Shown here piece after piece: positions 15,790 through 46,300 of a stretch of 64,000 bases of DNA (its first letter is position 1; the number at the start of each line of letters is the position of its first letter). The position numbers and the translations under genes are program-made. This DNA is from Cokeromyces recurvatus (lineage: Eukaryota; Mucoromycota; Mucoromycetes; Mucorales; Mucoraceae), in NCBI RefSeq assembly GCF_025118155.1, contig NW_026251429.1, forward strand, positions 1-64,000, read 5' to 3'. The notes under the pieces are model-generated. The model saw only the letters and a program-made list of their open reading frames with translations. It did no database searches and was not told the origin of the DNA.

Positions 15790-17452
15790 CAGTAGGCGGA
15801 AAAATGGTCCGGATGTTTTAACAAAAATGACAAAAACACTTATAACTAATGAACAAATAAAGCAAATGACACAGAACAAAATGTATTTAAAAGAGAAAAT
15901 TGTCTAGTTTTATTGATATAAATTTAAAGAAATATGATTGGCTAAAATATACTAAAATCGGAGGTTAAAGCTGTAGTGTACATCCGGACCATTTTTCAGG
16001 GTGCATCCGAAAAATGGGCATCCGCAGTTTGATGACCTGTAATGAGTCATAAATTGTCATTTGTAATATCCAATAAGCAGTAATGAATATTCGGCAACTT
16101 AATATCATAAAAAAGTATAAAAAAAGTTATTTTTTATCATCAGTATTGCGTGCTTCTTTTTAGATTATTATATTTACACTTTATATTACATTATTACATC
16201 ATTATGGCTCGTTCACTTACATAAGATAAGCAAAATAACATCAAATCTTTATTGCAATTAGGTTGTTCATACTCTGAAATCATGAAACGTATTCCAGGTG
16301 CCAAAAGAGTACAATTTGTGACTATAAGAAAAGGTTTTTCCCTGAATGAAAAGCTACATCTAGTGGTAGAAAGATGGTTGTAGGTACAACTAGCCGTTCT
16401 TATATTAGAAAGAAGTTAGTAACAGGTGAGTTAAGAACTGCCAAGGATGTTCATCGTTATTTGGTGTCTACTGGTCATGATTTAGGCTATTCAGCATGTC
16501 TGAAGATTATGAAGTCTATGAATTTTGAAACTGCTATAAAGAAGAAGAAGCCTTTTTTGAAGCCTGAGCATAAAAAGAAGCGTTTAACGAAGGCCAAAGC
16601 TCACCGATATTGGACTAAGGATGACTGGAGGCGTATGGTTTTCTCTGATGAAGCAAATATCAACGTTTGGGGGTCTGATGGTGTTAAATACTATTGGAAG
16701 CGTCCTGATGACAAATTGTCCTTTCATCATTTGGACTTAAATGTTAAAGGAGATAATGGTAGTGTAATGATGTGGGGTTGTATAACCTATGATGGTCCTG
16801 GTTATGCCTATCAGATTACGGATGGTACCATGAAAAAGGAAGATTACGTGCATATCTTGAATACTACTCTAAAAGATACCCTTGAGTGGTATGGCTATGA
16901 CCCTCAGCATATTTATTTCCAGCAAGATAAGGACCCTAAACATACCGCAAAGCTTACAAAGCAGTGGTTAGCGGATAATAAGTTCGATATCGAGTCTACT
17001 TATAGTTGGCCACCTCAAAGTCCAGATTTAAACCCTATAGAACACATTTGGCACCACCTGAAGTTGAAGCTTAGTGCTTATCCAACCAAGGCTAAAGGAG
17101 TCCATGAATTATGGGAAAGAATTGAAGAACAATGGGCTACTTTTACAAAAGAGGATTGCCAAAAGTATATTGACTCTATGCCAGCAAGAATAAAGGCAGT
17201 AACTGATGCTAAGGGTGCTTATACTAAGTACTAAGTACTAAGTACTAAGGAAATTTTGATGTACCCTGAAAAATGGTCCGGATGTACACTACAACTTTAA
17301 CCTCCGATTTTAGTATATTTTAGCCAATCATATTTCTTTAAATTTATATCAATAAAACTAGACAATTTTCTCTTTTAAATACATTTTGTTCTTTAGTTAT
17401 AAGTGTTCTTGTCATTTTTGTCAAAACATCCGGACCATTTTTCCGCCTACTG
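15790..17452 (+). mobile_element. Tc1/mariner-type transposon, complete ends (element Tc1-1)
   Basis: 1663 bp, flanked by TA at 15788-15789 and 17453-17454. Ends are CAGTAGGCGGAAAAATGGTC and its inverse. The terminal inverted repeats are long: 15790 to about 16016 and about 17256-17452. Each arm carries the motif AAAAATGGTCCGGATGT at its outer end and the same motif inverted at its inner end. The right arm lacks about 20 bp near 17393 that the left arm and the partial copy at 19543-20070 retain. Partial copies also lie at 30240-30497. Confidence 0.93.
16374..17234 (+). pseudogene. Tc1/mariner transposase, DDE domain intact, N-terminal HTH decayed
   Basis: The open frame (287 codons with stop) holds the full catalytic domain: first Asp in VFSDEANINVWGSDG, second in YFQQDKDPKHTAKLT, Glu in SPDLNPIEHIWHHLK, giving a DDE-type spacing. 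It ends VTDAKGAYTKY, and the stop lies in a TAAGTAC repeat. The expected HTH part lies upstream from ATG 16204 but is broken by TAA at 16222-16224, a frameshift near 16325-16335 and TGA at 16347-16349. The protein as it stands lacks DNA binding and is probably inactive. Confidence 0.9.
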
Positions 17453-35756: not shown

Positions 35757-36380
35757 ACAAGTTTATTAAGAATAATACAAAAACTGCACAATGAAAAATT
35801 ATATGCAAAATGTCGAGGACTATCTATAAGGCTTTACAAGGTAAGTGATTATTGATAGAAATATGATTGAGATAAGCAAGTATTACTATAATAAAGTGTT
35901 TTATATAAAACATTGTCTCCGAATAATTCTGTAATCAATAAAATATATTTTTATTCTTTTTTCTCCATGAGCTGTCTCCGTTTCTAGAAACATAACGAAT
36001 CATTATCACTGGAAGTGCAACACATCAACATTAATTCTCAGTGAATATGTTCAGCTGCAATAATACCAATTATTTATGAGTTACTATCGTTATCATTGTA
36101 TAATATCTTATTACATAACAATATTCAGTATTATCAATGCATATATGATATGTATTATTCATGAATAATTATATGATTGAATACACCAATCATAATTCTG
36201 TTTGAATTATGTATATAATTATTATTAGTGCTCGAATACTATTATCAAAACTGAGTGTAGAATGAATATTATGCTGTGAAGTACAATATACTGGTTTTAT
36301 ATAAATAATCTCCTTATTATTTAAATAAAAGATGATTTATTTCTATTCATTTAGTTGTAAAGATGACTACAATCATAACA
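35757..36380 (-). repeat. LTR1 family repeat
   Basis: Minus orientation, starting TGTTATGATTGTAGTCATCT at 36380. It is the closest relative of 23880-24540 in this window, with long identical runs (TTATACAATGATAAC, AATTATTCGGAGACAATGTT). The far end (about 60 bp) is missing or replaced. Confidence 0.75.
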
Positions 36381-39236: not shown

Positions 39237-39623
39237 TTTTAACAAAATTATATGAGATAAACAAGAGATAAAGTGGTGTATTTGTTGAATTTTGTTTGAA
39301 TATTATTTAACCGTGTTTTGTTTTTTTTTAAAAGGTTATATTAATTTATGTACGATTTATGCACCTGATCAGGAGAAGTGTTTATCAGATACATTTGTGT
39401 GTCACAGAATTTACGACAATTTAAATATCTGACTATTAAAAGTCTAGTCAGAAGGTCGTTGGTGGTGCTCTCTAACAATACTTAAACTTGGGATTGAGAC
39501 AAAGAGGAATATTGTTTAGACCAATGAGACTCCGGTTTAGACGAAGAGAAAAAAAATGAGACGAATCAATGTTAATTTTTAGACAAGTAAGGATTATTTT
39601 GTAGATGATTTATCTATAAATAT
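39237..39623. other. Spacer between two minus-strand loci
   Basis: Contains the upstream region of the 37644-39236 gene. No gene seen. Confidence 0.4.
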
Positions 39624-40126
39624 CTAAATTGTCCTTTCAAACAAAATCGTGTTCTCCACATTGATTTCTCTTTTGAAGACTAAAGGTCTTCCTTTGCCCT
39701 CCCAAACAGAAAGCGAAGTACCCTGCATGTTTTTGCTTGCATTTGTATCTCAGTCGCAAAGTATATGGCAGAGTTTACAATCTACTATACCTTAAAAATA
39801 TTTCTGTTCGGAAAGCTTCATTGTCTTAAGCACTTTTTTTTTGTAGCTGTTGCACACCTAAATATGTGCAGCTTAAAATGTTAGTAATAGAAACTCTCTC
39901 AATACTTGAAAACAGTAACAATACTGGCATTGGAGGTTCTAAACTCATTGATGTCTACCACTACAGATCCAAAGGTTATAGACCTTAGTTGAAGCTCTCT
40001 TTGAAGCACTCTAGTGGCACCAAAAGCGTGATCCTTGATTACTACCATATCGTTATTCTTCATACCTTCAGCAAAAATAATGAGAGGAATGACATCTGAA
40101 TTTTGAATGAACTTTTCTTCAGCCAC

Positions 40127-40165
<39 letters not shown>

Positions 40166-42454
40166 TAGTTTAAAAAAAGTGCTAGATTACATTGTTAATA
40201 CATGTACCCTGTTTCAATTAAGAAATATATATGTATAGTTGAACAAACCCTTTATCTTGTGTTGCCTTCTTGTCTATGCTTTTCCTTTCTCTGCTTTCTG
40301 TTCTTTATGGTGTCCTTTCTTTTTTTTATTGTACTCTTTACCCCTATTGATAAGTACTTTTGCTATTTCAGCATTGGCCCTCTGTCTTCCTTGGTAGTTA
40401 TTGAATCGAAAAGGAGAAGATTTATAGCTGTAAAACTGGAATAGACGAGACAATTGTACAGGTAGATACCGGATATGTTCTTGAAACTTTTCATTACTAA
40501 CAGTCTTAGCAGTGTGCAGGTCAGTCTCAATTGTTTCAAATTATGTATGTTGAGTCTTTAACCGCTCCACATATGTAGCTCTTCTATTGGTACCAGTATA
40601 GCATGCTTTTTCTTTGCCACTATAGCGCCGTATTTCCAGTTCTTCGGTAGAGTGAGCAACAGTAGTAGTAAATGTCTGCCTCCTTCCTGTATCTAAAGCA
40701 CATGGCAGAAAGTGTTCTTTGACTTCATCGGCTTGAAAGTCTTCCAAAATTAAATACATTTAGATTTGTTTCTTTCTTTGGTTTATATCGAGCAAAAATA
40801 AAACAAGCCCCAAAATTATCTAACATCATGAAGCACATGAAGCGTACTTTGCTTTTCGGTGATAAAAGTTATTCAAGACTGAACAAAAAATAAACGTAAA
40901 GTATTTGTATTTTTACAAAGAGTATTGCTTGTACAAATTTAGTTTCTTACCTTTCAAATCGAAACTTTTTAGAATCAAAAGTAGGGTAAAACTGTTCAAT
41001 GTTTTCTCTATAGATTGTACCGGATTTTTTCTTTACAATAGTAGCAAGAGATATACAATTGATAGATATATACTTCCAGCGCAAGCTAGGAGTAGGTGCA
41101 AGCGACAAACTTCTTGGCTTATCTAATGGATCAGTGCAGTTGCTACAGAATGATTCCAACTCACTAATAATATACCCTAAAACAGATATAAACTTGGTGG
41201 GTGATGCAGTTATATTTGTAGTATTAGGTGAGATTAAAAGCCAATTTTTGAATTTTTGAATTATTCCAGTGATCTGGTAAACATGTGCAATACGGACTAA
41301 ATCAAATTGTTTGGGCCACTTTGGGTTTCCATTGGAACCTAAAAGGCGCTCATAACAGTATTTTTCTGCCATCATATATAGAAATCCCTTCGGCATGCCC
41401 TATTATAGACTTTTGAGTTTAGTACGTGTCAAAAATCAAGTGTACATACATAATTGTGTATAATTATATATACATGTATAAAAAAAAACTTTTTAACTTG
41501 TATACATCTTTTAACTTGATTTGCAGGAAGTATACTAATCTATCTTTAAAAATCTCAACAATATGATTGAGATAAGTTGTTCCAAGCGTAACACGAGCAG
41601 CAGATAGAGAATCGCTATACCATGTAATCATACGATCTTTCAAAATAAAACTAATGTACGGATGTGTCTGTTGGAATGCAGCAAACGAAAAAAAAAAACG
41701 ATTTCATTTGACAAGAAATTTTTGTTCGTAACTTCCTGGCCCGTGATAAGTTGTGATATAGAGTATCAAAAGTTTTTTTTTGTTTTATTGCAGATAAAAA
41801 ATCAGAATCTTGATTGAGGATTGTACGAAAAGTGACATTTTTGATAAACTCACTAAGTTTTATAACTTTATCAGTAAATAAAGCTTTATGTGAAGGTCGT
41901 AATACAGATTCTAGGTATAACTTTCGTGTGAATTTTTCCATACTCCCACCAAAATCTTTCTGAAGCATTTCTGTTAATGTTTCCTTATATTTGGGGCACT
42001 GTTTGGATTTGACATTAAGATGTCCATGTTCTTCACAAGAACCACAGATAGGAACAGCACAACAACAACTACTACTACTGCCAGTTTTTTCTTAATCCAA
42101 ACGCATTTGTTTACCCTTTTGCTTATCAATCTTTGTCACATAATCATCCTTTGTAGGTCCCTTTTTTTTCTTGCGCCTATATAATATTTGCATAAATAGT
42201 GTTAATAAAATATCTACGTTTAACTTACAACTAAACATTAATAATTACTTTTGATGTACTGAGAACATAAATAACTTTCTTTATGTCTATAACCTTCAAT
42301 GACACAATCTTAGCATTTCATTACTTCTATATAGTTATTTGAAGTACATGATACAATTAAAAAATTGGGTATATAATCGTATTATTGCAGACTTACAACT
42401 TTTTTTCTTTGCATCTTTTTGCTTTAGATATTCCACACGTTTCAAGAAGGGCAT
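39624..42454 (-). pseudogene. Fanzor / TnpB-like (OrfB family) nuclease gene, decayed
   Basis: Possible start MPFLKRVEYLKQKDAKKK at 42454. Zinc-knuckle-like ICGSCEEHGHLNVKSKQCP near 42040; LQKDFGGSMEKFTRKLYLES; then at 41396-40947 a domain with NPKWPKQFDLVRIAHVYQIT. RuvC-I-like ALDTGRRQTFTTT (Asp about 40692) with YTGTNRRATYVERLK; then HTAKTVSNEKFQEHIRYLP, and a basic stretch. Next PLIIFAEGMKNNDMVVIKDH and VVVDINEFRTSN (Asp about 39955), the RuvC-II/III side; then the zinc ribbon remnant CQYCYC...CKLCHILCD and DTNASKNM, ending GKGRPLVF. That closing order is diagnostic of the TnpB/Fanzor family. Stops (e.g. after KQMRLD and in the ribbon), frameshifts and a ~32-base poly(T) insertion at 40133-40164 show it is dead. 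Confidence 0.72.
40133..40164. repeat. Poly(T) tract inside the Fanzor-like pseudogene
   Basis: About 32 T on plus. It interrupts the coding trace just before the RuvC-II side. Confidence 0.95.
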
Positions 42455-42917
42455 GTTAGAGTATTGAGAAAAGCGAGAGAGAAAGAGTGTGATAGAGAAA
42501 AAAAAACCTGGCTCGTTCTGGATAAAACTAACATATTTATCATTTTTTGAATGCAAGTTACACACAGGTATATATCAGTTTTAAATTTATCAAGCAAATA
42601 CTCAGTGTACAACTATTGAACTCTAATGTGAGTAGTTGCCCTCTCTTATTATTTATGCGATTTCAGCGTCATATGATATGAAAAATGGTCATTATATTGA
42701 ATCCAAATCATGCAGTTGTCTTTATTATAAAATAAAGAATTTGATAGATACAATAAATGTTGATACTATCTGTACAAGGAAGACAGTTATTTCATTCTTT
42801 GACTAAGCTAATAGTAATGTCGAATCGCCACAGAAGTGCTTATTAAAAAATATTCAATTTATGTTCTTGTAAGTCGAGATAGTACACATTAATTGTGCAA
42901 TACAATATGACTGTATT

Positions 42918-42965
<48 letters not shown>

Positions 42966-43853
42966 CAGAGTTAATCAGTGGTTATTCGGGAACAATTATA
43001 TTATAACTGGAATGTCAATGGTGCATTTTATTAATTGACTCAAGAGGGCAGATTGTCAAACTACGATACAAGTGTTTTTTAGGCAAACAATTTCAAAATA
43101 TTAATAAATATATACACATGGCATTGATAATATACTCGTTCTATTTTATTTTTTACTTCAAGGGCCAACTGCTATCATTTTGGAGCGTCTAAAAACGTAA
43201 CTTGATTGATTTAAATAAAAACATTATAATTTTATTTAGTAAGAACAGTCTCAATCTCAAGTTGAAAAATTGTGCATAGAAGGGGGCCCTCAGAACCGGG
43301 TGCACTACTAGTGAAATAGCTACTCAACTAAAAGTGCTAATATTCTTGTAATGCCTCTGAATTTTATCTTACTAATCTTTTTTTTCCAATTACTTTGTTA
43401 CTCTCTAATTCATTATATTTATTTTATCTTTTACACATATACTTTTATCCTTTTCCCTTTTGTCTCATAAGAGGGCTTTTCTTACTTATATATTATTAGA
43501 ACTGGCTAGGGGCAATACAGCAGATGAAAAATGCTGTGTGCTCATTTGGTCAAAAAAAAAATTTATAAAAATAAAAATTCAATTTTAAACGTACGTAAAA
43601 GGGGGTGATGCAGTTATTTAAATTATTGTGCTCATTATGGCCATTTTTTTTTCTTTAATAAATTTATCATTTAATCATACATAGAAGGGTAAAAAGAAGT
43701 AAGTTTTTTTAGCCTTTTATTCATCAATATGTTTAATTTATCAATAAATCTGTATATCCTTTGTAGTAATTTAACCAATCCAAATAACAAAAAAAGTAAT
43801 ATTTTTCCATTAAGCCCCTAATTAATTCTTTTTTCTCCCAATTTTTGATTCCA
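42455..43853. other. Gene-free AT-rich stretch with a ~41-base poly(T)
   Basis: Poly(T) at 42920-42960. No coding frame, tRNA or family repeat recognised. The sequence after 43200 is slightly less AT-rich but has no identifiable content. Confidence 0.5.
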
Positions 43854-44228
43854 TCAGAATCAGCATTCAAGATGTTACATTAATCTCATCCGCACAGTAG
43901 CAGGGTTCCTTTTCTTTTTCCAAGAAGAGGTGTCATACATGCTTGATAAAAAGGTTTGCTAGCAAGGATAGCCTTTTAGAAACTGTTGTTCCTTTCTAGG
44001 TATATGAAAATATGTCGTTACGCGAGGACCTTTTTCTATACTTGCTAGCTCCCTTTTGACCATCCTTGTTGCGTCATTCGTGTAGAATTTTGATCAACCA
44101 GGCTCTTGATCCTCACGTCTTGATTGGTTTCAAGGTAAGCTACGTGCAAACTCTAAAGAGACAGTCTAAAAGCTATCCAGTTAAGTACTATTAATTCATA
44201 AATATACTTACTTCTCTAATCAATTCAA

Positions 44229-44281
<53 letters not shown>

Positions 44282-44685
44282 CTTTTTCTTTGCCTACTTT
44301 TCCGTAGGAATCAGAATCAGCATTCAAGACGTTACATTAATCTCATCCGCACAGTAGCAGGGTTCCTTTTCTTTTTCCAAGAAGAGGTGTCATACATGCT
44401 TGATAAAAAGGTTTGCTAGCAAGGATAGCCTTTTAGAAACTGTTGTTCCTTTCTAGGTATATGAAAATATGTCGTTACGCGAGGACCTTTTTCTATACTT
44501 GCTAGCTTCCTTTTGACCATCCTTGTTGCGTCATTCGTGTAGAATTTTGATCAACCAGGCTCTTGATCCTCACGTCTTGATTGGCTTCAAGGTAAGCTAC
44601 GTGCAAACTCTAAAGAGACAGTCTAAAAGCTATCCAGTTAAGTACTATTAATTCATAAATATACTTACTTCTCTAATCAATTCAA

Positions 44686-44722
<37 letters not shown>

Positions 44723-45124
44723 TTTTCTTTGCCTACTTTTCCGTAGGAATCAGAATCAGCATTCAAGACGTTACATTAATCTCATCCGCACAGTAGCAGG
44801 GTTCCTTTTCTTTTTCCAAGAAGAGGTGTCATACATGCTTGATAAAAAGGTTTGCTAGCAAGGATAGCCTTTTAGAAACTGTTGTTCCTTTCTAGGTATA
44901 TGAAAATATGTCGTTACGCGAGGACCTTTTTCTATACTTGCTAGCTCCCTTTTGACCATCCTTGTTGCGTCATTCGTGTAGAATTTTGATCAACCAGGCT
45001 CTTGATCCTCACGTCTTGATTGGTTTCAAGGTAAGCTACGTGCAAACTCTAAAGAGACAGTCTAAAAGCTATCCAGTTAAGTACTATTAATTCATAAATA
45101 TACTTACTTCTCTAATCAATTCAA

Positions 45125-45162
<38 letters not shown>

Positions 45163-45317
45163 TTTTCTTTGCCTACTTTTCCGTAGGAATCAGAATCAGC
45201 ATTCAAGACGTTACATTAATCTCATCCGCACAGTAGCAGGGTTCTTTTTCTTTTTCCAAGAAGAGGTGTCATACATGCTCGATAAAAAGGTTTGCTAACA
45301 AGAATAGCCTTTTAGAG
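43854..45317. repeat. Tandem array of a ~440 bp unit, 3.3 copies, each with an internal poly(T)
   Basis: Units start at 43854, 44311, 44750 and 45190 with TCAGAATCAGCATTCAAGA(T/C)G. Lengths are 457, 439, 440 and 128 bp (last partial); the length difference lies in the poly(T) run (up to about 50 T at 44231-44280). Apart from that the copies differ by only a few substitutions, so amplification is recent. On minus each full unit holds a coding-like segment with a 59 nt intron (see findings). The array ends abruptly next to a LINE remnant. Confidence 0.93.
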
Positions 45318-45575
45318 TTTGATGACGTCCTGATTAAAGTCCTTCTCAATAACGTAGCCTCCACTAGGTTTTCTCCAAATATCAGAATATTACAAGATTT
45401 CATATTATCTCCTCTTTTCTTCACTCTATTTTATATTAACAATCTATTGACCTAACATATTATGCTTTCATTGAAGTCCATTATTTGACCGATTCCAATC
45501 TAAGTAGCTCTTAGTTTACCTAACCTTGTTTATGCTGATATTACAGTCCTTAAATAGCAAATTTCTCCTTCTCCT
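45318..45575 (+). pseudogene. LINE reverse-transcriptase remnant
   Basis: Plus-strand reading gives FDDVLIKVLLNNVASTRFSP, LQDFILSPLFFTLFYINNLL, several stops, then LPNLVYADITVLK. This is the order G.LQG..LSPLLF..YIN.L ... Y.DD of LINE reverse transcriptases, with the second catalytic Asp changed (YADI). Strongly decayed. It abuts the partial last unit of the tandem array. Confidence 0.6.
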
Positions 45576-45689: not shown

Positions 45690-46300
45690 CTCTTAATGAA
45701 TATTATGATTGTAATTGACTTTATAACCAAGTGAATAGAAGCAAAGCATCATTTGTTAAGCAATAAAGAGGTCATCCAAATAAAAACTAGTATATTGTAC
45801 TTTACATCATCCTATATTCATTCTACATTCAGTTTTAATACTAGTTGTTGTTAGAGTATTTGAGCTTTCATAATAAGTATATACATTGTATTATTTAATA
45901 ATAAGGATTCAATAGGATTATGACTGTTATTTTCAGTTACATAATTGTTTATAAATCATACATATTATATGTACAGCTATGATGTTGAATAGTGTTATGT
46001 AATAATATCTTAGAGGATGATGATAATAGTAGCTTACCAATAATTGGTATTGTTGTGGCTGGAATATTCACCGTGAATTAGTATTAACGCATTGTTTACT
46101 TCCAGAAATAATAATTCGATATATATATATATATATATTAGTAACAGTGACAGCTCAGGGAGAATAAAGATAAAAATAAAAGAATATCTTATTGTATGCA
46201 GGATTATTTGGAGACACTATTTAGGCATGATTTCTTATTATTCCAGTATTTGCTTTCCCAAAGATTATATTTCTATTAATATCACTCACCGTATATATAT
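45690..46300 (+). repeat. LTR1 family repeat, diverged
   Basis: AATAAAGAGGTCATCCAAAT, TTCATTCTACATTCAGTTTT, AGGATTATGACTG and GGATTATTTGGAGACA follow the order of 23930-24380. (AT)n runs at 46118-46139 and 46292-46311 are copy-specific expansions. Confidence 0.65.

Follow-up and report, generated by a model that had tools for sequence, protein, structure and literature searches.

Fanzor proteins are relatives of CRISPR-type RNA-guided DNA cutters, and one of them, PpFz1 of Parasitella parasitica, carries a cyclophilin-binding FRI domain. Tc1/mariner transposons have short inverted ends with a flanking TA duplication and a DDE_3 transposase. Bao and Jurka (2013) recorded Fanzor1 from Rhizopus, Phycomyces and Mucor as well as from mariner elements that show TA duplications (PMC3627910). 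The occurrence of Fanzor1 in transposons of the Mucorales is already published, and what we add here is a further member together with a candidate RNA scaffold. SpuFz1 of Spizellomyces punctatus and PpFz1 both cut DNA, and their omegaRNAs, of 90 nt and 75 nt respectively, have two stem-loops each (PMC11423790). The Fanzor1 element of a Spodoptera frugiperda ascovirus is reported to have a reRNA that continues beyond the TSD for ~15 nt and whose scaffold is predicted to include both the TIR and the TSD (PMC10711439).

The window, as we call the whole stretch of 64,000 nucleotides that was analysed, lies on contig C38 (192,535 bases) of the 28.05-Mb genome of Cokeromyces recurvatus. An earlier note, made from the sequence alone, had listed a series of Fanzor-like motifs on its minus strand. 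The list and its order stood: CGSCEEHGHLNVKSKQC, ALDTGRRQTF, YTGTNRR, a basic linker, PLIIFAEGMKN, VVVDINEFRTS, a Cys pair, DTNASKNM and GKGRPLVF follow one another in that direction. The plural “Cys pairs” of that list did not stand, as a single pair (CKLC) remains and DTNASKNM comes after an in-frame TGA.

We searched every window ORF of at least 25 amino acids with a hidden Markov model of 12 Mucorales Fanzor proteins (A6). These came from a homolog search with L028, an open relative in the same genome, which retrieved 17 proteins, 15 of them named: six from Mucor flavus, three from Mucor plumbeus, two from Parasitella, three from Rhizopus and one from Gilbertella. Seven significant matches were obtained (E 1.6e-20 to 7.4e-5), all on the minus strand within 39627-42091 and collinear along the model, while the best remaining match in the window was not significant (E 0.32). 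In gene order they are 41654..42091 (profile 79-164, E 8.9e-12), which holds a CX2CX4HX7C knuckle; 41467..41703 (profile 206-267, E 4.5e-8); 40950..41399 (profile 269-417, E 1.6e-20); 40544..40759 (profile 461-527, E 8.1e-12), with the RuvC-I motif ALDTGRRQTF and its Asp intact; 40277..40540 (profile 531-615, E 2.3e-19), with the basic linker at its end; 39902..40186 (profile 623-702, E 3.3e-13), which runs from PLIIFAEGMKN to DINEFRTS and has the Glu of DEFxTS; and 39627..39749 (profile 737-766, E 7.4e-5), with the RuvC-III Asp and the C-terminal GKGRPLVFKR. The motif CGSCEEHGHLNVKSKQC has the CX2CX4HX7C spacing and in the alignment falls on the second of the family's two N-terminal knuckles. 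Both knuckles are present in L028; by manual count among 16 homologs in the family profile (A5), the first is complete in six and the second in eight, several of the others being fragments. A literature search for Fanzor together with “zinc knuckle” found nothing.

When the seven pieces were compared by BLASTP with 138 proteins, six matched only the 18 Fanzor proteins in that set; the RuvC-I piece additionally matched two non-Fanzor proteins, at E up to 1. The same pieces, searched alone against Pfam, matched neither PF07282 nor any other credible family, and this counts against a Fanzor reading; the only match was RE_TdeIII at E 0.041, below its cut-off. The result would also be consistent with a zinc-ribbon gene with no relation to OrfB/RuvC nucleases. 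However, the RuvC-I Asp, the Glu motif and the RuvC-III Asp occur in the relatives and are recognizable in the window too, and the E-values of the fragments against A6, together with the sequence and fold matches to SpuFz1 and other Fanzor1 proteins described below, contradict an unrelated gene, which we regard as exceedingly improbable. The lack of a PF07282 match is expected from a broken copy without one Cys pair. The profile comparison proposed in the earlier note failed for PF07282 on the dead pieces themselves; the pieces did match the Mucorales Fanzor proteins and the PF07282 loci of the same genome.

The gene is dead: two stops interrupt its reading frame, the frame itself is broken, and one Cys pair has been lost, so that the protein can no longer be produced from the window copy. 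An in-frame TAA within the RuvC region (40541..40543, minus strand) separates two fragments of the same frame that end and begin at profile positions 527 and 531, and an in-frame TGA (39750..39752, minus strand) stands immediately ahead of the RuvC-III motif DTNASKNM. The fragments at 41654-42091 and 41467-41703 are in different frames, whereas L028 has a single exon over the corresponding stretch. The zinc ribbon has lost its first Cys pair, and no fragment covers profile positions 702-737. A third stop, the TAA at 42092-42094, lies just ahead of the first fragment, where coding is unproven. The dead mucoralean Fanzor of the earlier note is borne out by these stops, the frame break and the A6 matches, and can be named more exactly as a Fanzor1.

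The window copy is one of many. A PF07282 search of the genome gave 70 matches, 60 of them above cut-off, and the RuvC-II exon of the window (39902..40186) gave 55 matches, counting itself. Merged with a few further matches, these make about 108 Fanzor places besides the window. The number is a lower bound, and a rough one because many are fragments and two at contig C30 overlap. The intact relative that the earlier note thought might exist is L028 (C12:315-318 kb), an unbroken six-exon gene model of 786 residues. It matches PF07282 at 36.7 bits (cut-off 26.3), has the motifs DPGR, DEFRTS and RDINAS, and combines a RuvC domain with relocated Glu (DE[FY]xTS) and a C4 zinc ribbon. Of 13 examined places besides the window that cover at least 450 profile positions, L028 is the one for which an unbroken model was assembled.

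To place the family, we compared it with solved structures. The closest solved protein by sequence was SpuFz1 (8gkh and others), which came first for L028 (E 3e-4; next LaTranC, 0.022) and for the family profile A5 (E 7.5e-9; next 0.054). The alignment covers the C-terminal GxGRPxxFxR, whose window version is GKGRPLVFKR. The structure predicted for the Mucor flavus homolog is a weak model and as such a point against the Fanzor1 reading: its mean pLDDT is 54.6, and the RuvC part lies mostly below 50. Even so, all seven of its fold matches at E <= 0.001 were to Fanzor1 (PpFz1 twice, SpuFz1 four times, GtFz1 once). Among solved structures, judged by sequence and by this model, the family appears closer to Fanzor1 than to TnpB or Cas12. 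One could propose instead a Fanzor2 or a transferred bacterial TnpB of the IS607 or IS605 type, since RuvC and zinc ribbon are common to Fanzor2 and TnpB, and for one ORF of L057, a locus that belongs to another Fanzor lineage of this genome, the top hit among solved structures is a TnpB (9nzp, E 0.003). On the other hand, at E <= 0.001 the family under study matched no solved structures other than Fanzor1, its gene is multi-exon in L028, it has the C-terminal GxGRPxxFxR in common with SpuFz1, and its elements have inverted ends, unlike IS607. A Fanzor2 or TnpB origin is very unlikely.

With SpuFz1 the family has in common a Glu motif of the DEYxTS type, the C-terminal motif and a two-stem-loop RNA, which is an omegaRNA there (PMC11423790) and a candidate here. 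It differs in its distant sequence and in stem-loop 1, for which 7 pairs are reported there and 5 were counted here. The best fold match was PpFz1 (9cf0, 9cf1), which comes from the same fungal order; as it was not retrieved by the sequence searches with this family, it belongs to a different Fanzor1 subfamily.

Six loci on contigs C1, C45 and C64 (L047, L048, L049, L050, L057 and L006, compared with L008) form a second Fanzor lineage with different inverted ends, which in L047 are 32 identical nt. In L008, RuvC-I (TVWGLDPGLRDVF) lies within a segment of about 850 nt, and all six lack this same segment. The six copies are nevertheless 90-99% alike, which suggests that they spread even though the first catalytic Asp was gone.

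The window gene lies within a mobile element. The earlier note had placed the locus at 39624..42454, which fell short on both sides, and had not mentioned inverted ends: the Fanzor1 element (minus strand) spans 39475..43273, or 3.8 kb, with inverted arms of 26 nt as its bounds at 39475..39500 (plus strand, gene 3' side) and 43248..43273 (minus strand, gene 5' side). The former is 85% complementary to the latter. A pattern made from these arms, with up to 3 mismatches, had 17 matches in the genome against 0 for the reversed control, and a wider end pattern spanning other Fanzor subfamilies had 154 against 2. Among 100 listed ends, a Fanzor lay within 6 kb on the inner side of 46 and on the outer side of 2 (2.3 expected), so that the inverted ends are tied to Fanzor, as in carriage by eukaryotic, non-IS607 transposable elements.

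The ends of the element family read CAGT...ACTG and are mostly flanked by TA, which was the outer dinucleotide at 23 of the 34 examined ends (background 9.2%). TA-flanked inverted ends are the Tc1/mariner hallmark, and the family has them; the window copy has decayed, and its own end dinucleotides are AA and CA, which counts against that assignment. A DDE_3 transposase was not tied to the ends: it lay inside 1 of the 100 listed ends within 6 kb, with 3.2 expected, in a comparison that used the 150 listed of 184 genome matches to DDE_3. For this reason we describe the ends as mariner-like but leave the element itself out of the mariners. Two Tc1-like elements in the window, at 16 kb and 23 kb, were considered as transposase partners and neither was shown to be one: the ends of the first differ, and the second yielded no convincing ends. 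The first (15974-17291) is a Tc1/mariner-like element with arms of at least 29 identical nt, unlike those of the Fanzor element, an open frame of 294 codons and a DDE_3 match.

Other repeats around the gene were also considered. The inverted repeat 36115-36380 / 45703-45998 was rejected as a pair of element ends, as its right arm is dispersed and both arms match one stretch of L025, in opposite directions. The right arm falls within a dispersed repeat (45690-46050) with at least 42 other genome matches at 81-86% among 40 of 267 candidates scored, and 36115-36380 is its inverted relative. The segment 43287-43591, upstream of the gene, was assigned to another dispersed repeat. Just upstream of the Fanzor element, 43793-45428 is a tandem array in which a unit of ~440 bases occurs four times; the copies are 71-99% alike, and a long run of T is present in every one.

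Of the 54 listed ends with no known Fanzor, two (L066 and L065) were read: one has Fanzor coding remnants, and the other arose by deletion and is still 87-91% identical to Fanzor loci. L065 (C63:600669-601631) measures 963 bp, retains the two inverted ends and is flanked by TA on each side. It keeps the RNA core described below (35.8 bits), and in it no Fanzor protein match was detected; just the last Fanzor residues are recognizable by eye at its end.

These elements resemble those of Bao and Jurka (PMC3627910) in being mucoralean Fanzor1, in including Fanzor1-only elements with inverted ends, and in the TA flanks of the mariner type. They are unlike the Mucorales elements ROr-4, PBl-3 and MCi-4 of the same paper, which are of the MuDR type with a 9-bp TSD. 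The families per species given there number 3 to 10, compared with about 109 places here. The ascovirus element is likewise Fanzor1-only with inverted ends; it differs in its viral host and in that its RNA was measured, whereas ours is inferred (PMC10711439).

The earlier note had expected a structured RNA next to the 3' end of the gene and had proposed comparing 3' flanks to find it. The comparison yielded a covarying core of two hairpins with compensatory changes. The sequence ATCRCYRTA, which opens hairpin 1, lies at or just past the stop codon in 13 of 22 aligned 3' ends; a second hairpin follows and then TTTAGATTATTACAGGTAAG. In the window subfamily a variant is present. RNAalifold predicted two hairpins on a MAFFT alignment of 17 sequences (A3) and slightly shorter ones on 10 sequences without window-type members (A2); a third alignment (A1) held the window subfamily alone. 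The rows were hand-picked among loci with a recognizable core, and the counts describe those rows alone. In A3, 87.6% of cells paired, compared with 31.8-42.4% in slid controls, and 26 cells had double changes, compared with 9.4 +- 2.2 after shuffling (0 of 500 shuffles as high). Similar results were observed for A2 (88.5% against 33.3-47.9%; 15 double-change cells against 5.7 +- 1.9; 0 of 500). A different count, of pairs with a change on both sides, was not above shuffles (184 of 500 for A2, 64 of 500 for A3). In A1, 80.7% of cells paired and 12 of 500 shuffles matched this, a modest support within the window subfamily. Most of the covariation signal came from hairpin 2.

From the 10 sequences of A2 we built a covariance model (R1), blind to the window and its subfamily, and scanned the 64 kb unfiltered. 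It ranked 39610-39666 on the minus strand first of 23 window matches with E <= 10 (26.9 bits, E 1.8e-4, E-values being rough for such models); the second scored 15.4 bits (E 0.19). This relic of the core, a candidate omegaRNA scaffold, overlaps the last codons of the gene. Its hairpin 2, UUGUUU-GAAA-GGACAA, is fully paired (two G-U), with 8 of the 12 stem letters unlike those of C12_512k by manual comparison, and hairpin 1 keeps 4 of its 5 pairs. Over 51 loci R1 gave 37 matches to E 1, 32 of them below 0.01, which include its own 10 rows and the window. Rfam at gathering scores had no match in the window.

The end motif of the core had 66 matches in the genome compared with 1 in the control. 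A Fanzor lay upstream on the same strand of 32, downstream of 0 and on the opposite strand of 2, with 0.19 expected. Against the association, 31 of the 66 have neither a known Fanzor upstream nor a listed end downstream. Four of these, at 20-27 bits, were examined as omegaRNA-only elements and the idea was dropped, the hairpins being missing or damaged in the three that were aligned. A small hairpin in the inverted repeat, AGUA-GAAA-UACU, was likewise set aside, as its pairs are lost between subfamilies by eye. At L007 (C5:347931-349845) two Fanzor 3' ends point outward, ~1.9 kb end to end, and each of them has a separate RNA core and terminal repeat.

The two-hairpin core is a candidate omegaRNA scaffold. 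In the accessible parts of the papers, no RNA is named for the Bao and Jurka elements (PMC3627910), and PpFz1 has a short two-stem omegaRNA of 75 nt (PMC11423790); by analogy, the core seen here fits a two-stem scaffold. Another possibility is that in the same Fanzor1 relic the 3' hairpins served as a transposase-binding or DNA-hairpin site, or as a structured signal for 3'-end processing of the mRNA, and were not an omegaRNA. The loop of hairpin 1 is AATAAA, ATTAAA or AGTAAA in several subfamilies, resembling poly(A) signals, its G-U pairs (6) are no more numerous than its A-C oppositions (6), and in L028 the stop codon lies inside hairpin 1, which thus overlaps the mRNA signal region. However, the window-type loops (window: AGAGGAA, GGAGAAC) have no poly(A)-like hexamer, and in hairpin 2 the G-U pairs (10) exceed the A-C oppositions (3), which suits an RNA of the gene strand. 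The core motif was observed only on the 3' side of Fanzor, on the same strand, whereas the terminal repeats occur at both ends. Two stem-loops are also what SpuFz1 and PpFz1 omegaRNAs have (PMC11423790). These data make a site or signal other than an omegaRNA unlikely.

On the joining of the guide, the omegaRNA reading has against it the roughly 70-180 variable bases between the RNA core and the element end. It could be speculated that the omegaRNA was made by splicing. The core ends UUACAG/GUAAR, which reads as a strong 5' splice donor; near the 3' end of the element many copies have a branch-like ACTAAC, followed at ~17 nt by the end of an AAG, itself some 12 nt from the element end, and 16 of the 22 aligned 3' ends have a CTRAY site at 34-38 nt from the end. 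Splicing would excise the 70-180 nt, so that the scaffold would run straight into the final 9-13 nt of the inverted repeat and on into the flanking guide; the product, of ~73-81 nt, would be near the 75 nt reported for PpFz1. On the other hand, CTAAC lies within the inverted repeat, which has other grounds for conservation, and CTRAY is absent in 6 of the 22, including the window copy and two relatives of it, C17 and C11. From these sequence features, splicing seems quite unlikely.

The explanation that we consider probable is that the window locus is a dead copy of a Fanzor1 element, with the proposed omegaRNA and a role in retention. From published Fanzor1 biochemistry and the anatomy of this element, we infer how a live copy may have worked. 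It would have made the Fanzor1 nuclease. The 3' part of the transcript would have formed the omegaRNA scaffold by folding, and the guide would have come from sequence at the element's 3' end or past it. The complex would then have cut DNA matching the guide, for example a copy of the site without the element, and such cutting would have favoured retention of the element. Movement would have been in trans, by a transposase, none having been found linked to the ends.

One mucoralean genome thus holds about a hundred Fanzor1 places, one of them with an open model. For this subfamily there is now a candidate guide scaffold that covariation supports, which opens its RNA side to small-RNA sequencing. 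The multiplied Fanzor elements, for which no transposase is known, offer natural material for asking what use Fanzor is to a transposon.
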